A stretch of 64,000 nucleotides of DNA from NCBI GenBank assembly GCA_009841105.1, contig VXMM01000056.1:1-64000 (forward strand), given 5' to 3'. Position 1 is the first letter of the stretch. Each line of letters begins with the position of its first letter. Shown here in pieces: positions 61,369 to 63,299 of this stretch. A program made the position numbers and the translations under genes. The stretch is from Acidimicrobiia bacterium (lineage in GTDB: Bacteria; Actinomycetota; Acidimicrobiia; Spongiisociales; Spongiisociaceae). Under the pieces are notes generated by a model, which did no database searches, was not told the origin of the DNA, and saw only the letters and a list, made by a program, of their open reading frames with translations.

Positions 61369-62100
61369 TCAGGCGGTGGCGTCCATGAAGGCTTGGCGGA
61401 GTTCCTGCTCGGGGATGGAGCCGAACCAGCGGTTGACCTCGACGCCGTTCACCGCGAATACACCGACCGGCTGGTAAGTCACCTCGAAGGCGGCGAATAT
61501 CGAGTTGTCCTCATCCAGTAGCCAGCGGGTCGCGCCGGAGGTGAGGAAACCGCGGGCGGCGGAGGCCGTCTTCTCGTGGGTCGAAGCCCAGGCGACCGCG
61601 ATCACGTCCACCTGGCCGGCGTACTCGCCGGCTACATAGTCAACGACGGGCAACTCCCGTCGGCAGGCCGGTCACCACTCCGCCCAGAACAGGTAGAGGA
61701 CGGGGCGCGTGGCCTCGGTCGTGACGAAGGTGGTCCCGTCATCCAGTTCCAGGGTGAGGGCCGGAATCGGGGGTCCCTCGGGAACGGCAACCGGCTGGGT
61801 GGCCTGGGTCGTCTCCGGAACGGCGGTCGTCTCGACGACGGTGGTGGTCGCCGGCGCCTCGGCCGGCTCTTCCGGCGCCGCGGTCGTGGTGGTTGCGGCG
61901 GGCGGATCCTCCGCGACGGTGGTACCGGACACTGCGGTGGTGGCCGTGGTCGCGGACGTAGTGGCCGAGGTGGCGGCCGTCGAGGTCGTGGCCGGCTCCG
62001 CCGGTTCGGACGCCGCCTGCTCGTCCGATCCGCCTCCGCATGCCCCCAGGACAATGACGGCGGCCAGGATGGCGCCCACCACTCGATTGCGGCCTCTCAT
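61369..62100 (-). CDS. TlpA/thioredoxin-like lipoprotein with in-frame UGA at the redox motif (candidate selenoprotein)
   Basis: One frame spans 62100-61369 with a single internal TGA at 61672-61674. Residues 1-24 are a lipoprotein signal (VLGACGG), residues about 25-110 a Thr/Ala-rich linker. Residue 143 is the UGA in the context LFWAEW-U-PACRRELP, the place of the first Cys in the WCxxC motif of TlpA proteins; ccmG here has FFASWCLQCR. The frame then continues through a normal TlpA domain with the cis-Pro loop TYQPVGVFAVNG. ATGA/TGA overlaps elsewhere show UGA is a stop in this genome. With Sec inserted the product is 243 residues. Nonsense mutation is the main alternative. ATG at 62100 puts the lipobox correctly. 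Confidence 0.75.
61628..61674 (-). promoter_or_regulatory. Candidate bacterial SECIS element
   Basis: Immediately after the UGA (minus strand), CGACGGG (61662-61656) pairs with CCCGTCG (61650-61644) around loop AGTTG. The apical loop starts at nucleotide 17 after the UGA and has G as its second base. A lower stem CCGGC (61671-61667) with GCCGG (61632-61628) can extend it. These spacings match published general rules for bacterial SECIS hairpins (short upper stem, loop 16-37 nt from UGA, G early in the loop). Confidence 0.6.
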
Positions 62101-62172: not shown

Positions 62173-63207
62173 TCAGCCCCCGGCCAACTCCAGGCTCCGC
62201 GCAACCACCCTGTCCAGGACGTCGCCGGCAGTACCGCTGTCGATCGACTCGGCGGCTACGGCAACGGCTTCGGCCAGGTCGTTCGTGCGGCCCGATGCAG
62301 CGATGGCGGCGGCCGCGTTCAGCATGGAGACATCTCGATGCGGACCGGGTTCGCCATCAAGGACGCGGCGGGTGATGCCCGCGTTGACCTCTGCCGTCCC
62401 GCCCAGGAGCTCGGCCACGGATGCCGGTTGCAGGCCCACTTCCATGGGCGACACGTCCGTTCGGGACACCTCGCCTCTGTCAAGCCGCCAGACCACTGAA
62501 GGGCCGCTCAGGGTGAGCTCGTCCAGACCGTCCGAGCCGTGGAACACTAGGGCCCGCTCCGACCCCCGGAGGCTCAGCACCCGGACCATGCGCTCAGCCA
62601 TGCGCCCATCCGCCACCCCGAGCGCATACTTCCGCACCCCGGCCGGATTGCTCAAGGGGCCCAGGAAGTTGAAGACCGTGGGAATGCCGAGTTCCTTGCG
62701 AACCGGCCCGGCAAAGCGCATGGCCGGGTGGTAGACCGGCGCCAGAAAGAAGGCGTAGCCCGTGTCCATGAACAACCGGCGGTTCCTGTCGGGCGGCAGG
62801 TCGATGATCACCCCCAGGGCCTCCAGCACGTCCGCCGAGCCGCACTTGGACGACATGGACCGGTTGCCGTGCTTGGCGATCGGTATCCCGGCGCCGGCGG
62901 CGACGAAGGAGGCGGTGGTGGAAATGTTGAAGGTGCCGGAGCGATCGCCTCCGGTTCCCACGATGTCCACGGGATCGGCGTCGCCGAGGTCGACCCGGAC
63001 CGCCGCCTCCACCATGCCGTCGACCAGCCCACCCATCTCCTCTACCGTCTCCCCCTTCATACGGAGCGCCACGATCAGACCAGCAATCTGGGCAGGGGAA
63101 GCGAGGCCGCCCATTACCTGGCGCATGGCCTGGCGGGCCTGGGTGCGATTCAGGTCGGCGCCCCGAGAGATCGTGCCCAGAACCTCCGACCAGGAGAAGT
63201 CGGTCAT
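62173..63207 (-). CDS. trpD: Anthranilate phosphoribosyltransferase
   Basis: A 344-residue enzyme of tryptophan synthesis joining anthranilate and PRPP. The PRPP loop is DIVGTGGDRSGTFNIST; other blocks are AKHGNRSMSSKCGSADVLEALGV, HPAMRFAGPVRKELGIPTVFNFLGPLSNPAG and HGSDGLDELTLSG. ATG at 63205-63207 gives MTDFSWSEVLGTI, the usual start. It lies alone, not in a trp operon. The stop is 73 bp from the TlpA-like lipoprotein start, on the same strand. Confidence 0.94.
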   Translation of the reverse strand: MTDFSWSEVLGTISRGADLNRTQARQAMRQVMGGLASPAQIAGLIVALRMKGETVEEMGGLVDGMVEAAVRVDLGDADPVDIVGTGGDRSGTFNISTTASFVAAGAGIPIAKHGNRSMSSKCGSADVLEALGVIIDLPPDRNRRLFMDTGYAFFLAPVYHPAMRFAGPVRKELGIPTVFNFLGPLSNPAGVRKYALGVADGRMAERMVRVLSLRGSERALVFHGSDGLDELTLSGPSVVWRLDRGEVSRTDVSPMEVGLQPASVAELLGGTAEVNAGITRRVLDGEPGPHRDVSMLNAAAAIAASGRTNDLAEAVAVAAESIDSGTAGDVLDRVVARSLELAGG

Positions 63208-63299
63208 TGCGGGGAGTTTATCAGTGGTCCTGCTCCGGACCGGGCGAGACCTGTCTGACACCCATGTTCCTCGACGAGCAGGCTCAGCCGAACGCGGAA

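Follow-up and report, generated by a model that had tools for sequence, protein, structure and literature searches.

Does the reverse strand of the 64,000-nucleotide window, the whole stretch of Acidimicrobiia DNA analysed here, encode a selenoprotein, or is a UGA codon at the active site of a redox domain the mark of a broken gene or of an altered code? On computational grounds, we are highly confident that the gene at 62100-61369 encodes a selenoprotein, with selenocysteine (Sec) at codon 143. The evidence for this decoding and for the possible role of the protein is set out below.

A TlpA-like lipoprotein gene with a single internal UGA

The frame is continuous over 243 amino acids including one Sec, with a single internal TGA (Table 1), whereas the standard code splits the gene into two broken pieces of 156 and 94 amino acids. 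This bears out the sequence-only reading, which had placed one UGA at the first cysteine of a WCxxC motif, in a frame continuous on both sides and encoding a complete TlpA domain. The trpD cluster next to the gene is also present at 27 of the ~50 loci examined in relatives.

Table 1. Features of the locus, in window coordinates.
Feature	Position	Strand	Detail or basis
Predicted Sec-containing TlpA/ResA-like lipoprotein gene	61369..62100	minus	ATG at 62100, terminal TGA 61371-61369
Lipobox L-G-A-C, residues 18-21, with predicted lipid-anchored Cys21	62038..62049	minus	Sequence pattern
Low-complexity Thr/Ala/Pro/Glu linker, lipid anchor to redox domain	61789..62037	minus	Sequence
Redox domain of TlpA/ResA/DsbF fold (Pfam Redoxin/AhpC-TSA)	61372..61773	minus	Pfam, predicted fold
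In-frame UGA, predicted Sec codon 143	61672..61674	minus	First position of W-U-P-A-C
Cys146, predicted resolving cysteine	61663..61665	minus	Invariant in orthologues
Candidate SECIS hairpin CGACGGG-AGUUG-CCCGUCG	61644..61662	minus	7 bp, 5-nt loop, covariation
trpD (anthranilate phosphoribosyltransferase)	62173..63261	minus	Upstream of lipoprotein gene, same strand

The protein has an N-terminal signal peptide and lipobox (MRGRNRVVGAILAAVIVLGAC), and is predicted to be a bacterial lipoprotein, the lipobox being kept in orthologues (62 of 66 by pattern, 3 more by eye and 1 masked by N). Pfam assigns the redox domain to the Redoxin/AhpC-TSA/thioredoxin group, with PF08534 as the top match (34.6 bits, cut-off 26.6) and PF00085 also scoring above its cut-off (32.1 bits, cut-off 23.5). 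Its active-site stretch reads FWAEW-U-PACRRELPVVD, and the QP of the conserved cis-Pro loop lies at residues 210-211. The AlphaFold2 model of the domain (pLDDT 96.8) has Mycobacterium tuberculosis DsbF as its closest solved structure (TM 0.88), with Bacillus ResA and MPT53 also among the nearest, and pneumococcal Etrx1, TlpA and CcmG as the next matches. Both the fold and the family score above cut-off are those of a TlpA/ResA-like extracytoplasmic thioredoxin. Every match of the lipoprotein to the NCBIfam equivalogs (TlpA, ResA, DsbE, StoA) fell far under cut-off, and the same search matched no specific selenoprotein model; with no NCBIfam match above cut-off and two broken frames, the gene would probably be missed by standard annotation.

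UGA is conserved at the first active-site position

We searched for the redox domain in 98 relatives from the same order, 68 of which carry an orthologue with exactly one in-frame UGA. Throughout the 66 distinct genes read, this UGA is the codon after FWAEW, at the first position of CxxC, and five genomes (G041, G068, G072, G080 and G087) have Cys there, so that homologues show the UGA/Cys exchange that the sequence-only reading had proposed to look for. The assemblies behind these genes are independent. Where records with the family carry a name, they are Acidimicrobiia/Actinomycetota MAGs, UBA5794 among them, and several apparently stem from sponge sampling series. When 296 genomes of the class were sampled, 80 had a match at E <= 1e-12, of which 75 belong to this order.

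These orthologues bear on the possibility that a TGC or TGT codon was mutated to, or miscalled as, TGA, leaving a dead, truncated lipoprotein. One base difference would be enough, and the genome assembly is fragmented, with 69 contigs; however, the identical UGA recurs in all 66 distinct genes read, which come from many separate assemblies, purifying selection persists downstream of it, and the RNA structure 3' of it is under selection (see below). In an example comparison, dN was 0.037 and dS 0.476 downstream of the internal UGA, indicating that the stretch 3' of this codon is translated and useful. We consider a pseudogene or error extremely improbable. Sequencing error and further inactivating mutations were two of the three grounds for refutation named at the outset, the third being a lack of Sec machinery (see below); relatives from independent assemblies share the codon, and no other inactivating changes are present.

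The Sec machinery is encoded in the same genome

The sequence-only reading had suggested a search for the Sec genes, and all four were found: a tRNA-Sec with UCA anticodon (77 bits), SelA (435 bits) adjoining SelB (319.6 bits in one frame) on contig C13, and SelD (372 bits), which has its own in-frame UGA at SPGGG-U-ASK. Outside the window, the genome also encodes the alpha subunit of formate dehydrogenase, a classic Sec enzyme, with its UGA in frame at NRT-U-HAPS (L209, C21:48851-50701).

A UGA reassigned genome-wide (to Trp, for example), or read by a near-cognate tRNA without Sec, would equally keep the frame open, as any sense reading of UGA does, but this has next to no probability, since UGA terminates the lipoprotein gene and all four neighbours checked, relatives replace the internal codon by Cys and never by Trp, and Sec machinery is present together with a hairpin at the correct place.

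A hairpin 3' of the UGA is under selection as RNA

The stem of the hairpin starts at the 10th nucleotide after the UGA and its loop at the 17th, as originally described, leaving spacings of 9 nt from UGA to stem and 16 nt from UGA to loop. Published constraints on bacterial SECIS elements comprise a loop of 3-9 nt, a stem of 4-16 bp, a spacing of 16-37 nt, a G within the first two loop positions and an MFE <= -7.5 (PMC13188914). The hairpin at 61662-61644, with an MFE of -12.6 kcal/mol, has this geometry, in line with the initial claim of bacterial SECIS spacing. Folding of the single sequence is barely above chance (z -0.8 to -1.9), with 7 of 7 pairs also present in 310 of 5000 synonymous recodings of the gene, and we set it aside as too weak to serve as SECIS evidence.

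Comparison across the 66 UGA genes is far more telling. Mean pairing there is 6.35 of 7, against 4.49 +/- 0.12 upon synonymous recoding, where the highest mean among 500 trials was 4.89; the pairing is far beyond chance, in sequences that are related. Among 62 distinct sequences, 90.3% of stem cells are paired, 30 stem cells are changed on both sides, compared with 8.6 +/- 2.3 in shuffles, and the stem covariation score of 0.247 exceeds that of every shuffle and every slid register. Also, 60 of 66 UGA genes use TTG or TTA for the Leu of the loop, against 13.5% elsewhere in the same genes, while in Cys orthologues this codon is CTC or CTG or is replaced by Met (ATG), and never TTG or TTA. Together, this codon bias and the pairing relative to recoding indicate selection on the RNA, only where the UGA is present. 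Kinship of the sequences inflates these counts but does not explain the contrast with Cys orthologues, and part of the hairpin conservation is protein-driven, because the hairpin overlaps the RRELPV codons.

With a covariance model of the element, the hairpin of the lipoprotein gene was the best match in the whole genome (E 3.2e-9), and in this genome-wide scan for further selenoproteins the lipoprotein gene alone was convincing. The next matches were rejected, those at C14:7680, C23:40861 and C59:26041 having their TGA outside a real reading frame and that at C62:776 not starting at a TGA. The model is specific to the lipoprotein subfamily and missed SelD and FdhA, which were therefore sought by homology instead.

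In the mechanism we propose, SelB on the hairpin 3' of the UGA would deliver Sec-tRNA-Sec to codon 143, and the ribosome would read through to produce a full-length lipoprotein, exported and lipid-anchored, whose U-P-A-C centre would face the outer side of the cytoplasmic membrane. In the thioredoxin mechanism, the N-terminal residue of CxxC attacks and the second Cys resolves. Sec143 would thus act as the nucleophile that attacks, with Cys146 resolving. The first description had given the lipoprotein Sec as its resolving nucleophile; the presence of Sec is upheld, and the resolving role passes to Cys146.

Sec appears to have been exchanged for Cys more than once

SelB was found in 62 of the 69 UGA genomes, that of the window included. 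Of the seven others, four are at least 84% complete and have tRNA-Sec, the remaining three being only 56-77% complete. SelB and tRNA-Sec are both absent from four of the five Cys genomes, G087 having both; the association of Cys with absence of the machinery has a Fisher p of 0.0013, calculated on related genomes that are not independent events. In the tree, Cys sequences are nested within the UGA clade, and no fewer than two changes are required. Based on this tree and the genome counts, Sec appears to be ancestral in the family and to have been replaced repeatedly by Cys, usually with loss of the machinery.

The swap does not always go with that loss, given that G087 (L039) keeps SelB and tRNA-Sec yet encodes Cys. 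Its sisters G068 and G080 have Cys and lack Sec machinery, which suggests that the Cys swap preceded machinery loss. Most members of this uncultured Acidimicrobiia order have held on to the selenoprotein, and its reversals, which mostly coincide with machinery loss, offer a natural experiment on selenium retention.

Further Sec-containing TlpA-like genes

Three genomes of one genus, g36 (G085, G071 and G093; L044, L046 and L108), carry three UGA TlpA genes in tandem over ~2 kb, with poorer hairpins in two copies. Family f7, also of this order, has weaker UGA matches. A TlpA lipoprotein that is more distantly related, with W-UGA-STC, is encoded in G217 (L200), from another order of the class, showing that Sec TlpA proteins occur elsewhere as well.

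The genome of the window itself has two more Sec TlpA-like genes, both beyond the window. One (L216, C44:4574-4927) has a UGA at WSPF-U-ETC, and its protein has a lipobox-like N-terminus and a Thr-rich linker. The other (L215, redox domain at C16:3967-4347) encodes a Sec redox domain, WFWAEW-U-PTC, fused to S-layer-homology (SLH) repeats; with its putative signal peptide, the product is a candidate cell-surface selenoprotein, and the same SLH-redox fusion, with UGA, occurs in relative G009 (L207). Our literature search combining S-layers with selenoproteins turned up no S-layer-type selenoprotein, and this protein may be a more unusual item than the lipoprotein of the window.

We tentatively suggest, with slightly less than even confidence, that these proteins form a dedicated system for selenium-based thiol redox reactions on the outer side of the cytoplasmic membrane, with several CcdA-fed Sec TlpA proteins, two of them lipid-anchored and one carrying SLH repeats. 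If so, redox chemistry of the envelope would be the main use of selenium in an uncultured, partly host-associated actinobacterial lineage. The lipoprotein itself suggests that Sec is used outside the cytoplasm, possibly at the cell surface.

Physiological role

By inference, the lipoprotein would be a selenol/thiol-disulfide oxidoreductase working outside the cytoplasm, and most likely a reductase that CcdA recharges, an assignment that we hold at about even chances. It would act on oxidised envelope proteins, possibly apocytochromes c. Reduction is favoured because the genome encodes a homologue of CcdA, a CcdA-type electron carrier, and because lipoproteins of this fold in pneumococci take part in CcdA-Etrx-MsrAB2 electron pathways.

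Rather less probable, though a serious contender, is a protein that acts mainly as a thiol oxidase or isomerase (DsbF/DsbE-like) or as a peroxide reductase. The closest structures include M. tuberculosis DsbF and MPT53, which are thought to work as oxidases, and the Pfam matches are to Redoxin/AhpC-TSA; on the other hand, reduction is consistent with the UxxC motif, with a CcdA-type donor and with the lower redox potential that Sec confers, none of these points being decisive.

For the reductase that we prefer, a part in cytochrome c maturation is only suggested by gene neighbours in relatives. In about 14 of these, CcmF is encoded no more than a few kb away, in many cases along with CcmE, a TPR protein and a CcmG-like protein of the Cys type, the ccm genes often being in opposite orientation; ccm genes are absent beside the lipoprotein gene in the window genome. 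Identity with CcmG was rejected on account of the separate Cys CcmG-like gene in relatives, and the lipoprotein is not the sole thioreductase of a ccm operon, its gene lying outside any ccm cluster in the window.

Comparison with known systems

A recent review counts 119 prokaryotic selenoprotein families and subfamilies, and its Table 1 lists a 'Redoxin family protein, PF08534, UxxC' (representative HEU0032618.1) and a 'Thiol-disulfide isomerase-like, cd02966, UxxC' (PMC13188914). By Pfam family and motif, our lipoprotein resembles these entries in domain family, UxxC motif and Sec position, whereas the table gives neither a lipoprotein anchor nor an Acidimicrobiia order-wide distribution for them. 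Earlier, the Sargasso Sea and GOS surveys had turned up UxxC thioredoxin-like proteins. Selenoproteins of the UxxC TlpA/redoxin type have been catalogued before, and the family is of a known kind; its rarity as an extracellular selenoprotein, stressed in the sequence-only reading, is less than was supposed.

Among proteins of related fold, the best matches to the predicted model are M. tuberculosis DsbF (3ios) and MPT53/DsbE (1lu4), with TM 0.81-0.88 and 25-27% identity, and these differ in having a Cys-xx-Cys active site without Sec. The pneumococcal Etrx1 and Etrx2 (4hqs, 4hqz/2yp6), parts of CcdA-Etrx-MsrAB2 electron pathways, likewise place a lipid-anchored TlpA-fold domain outside the membrane (PMC3914529), but have a Cys active site and belong to a different bacterial phylum. 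ResA and CcmG have the TlpA-family fold in common with the Sec lipoprotein, near which CcmF, CcmE and CcmG-like genes lie in relatives; unlike them, it has a lipobox instead of a transmembrane anchor, and the ccm clusters of relatives already contain their own Cys CcmG-like protein. Our literature searches on selenoproteins in connection with Acidimicrobiia, sponge symbionts or S-layers did not find the lipoprotein family described. As far as our searches reach, its lipoprotein architecture, its nearly order-wide presence and its Sec-to-Cys reversals are new relative to these known systems.
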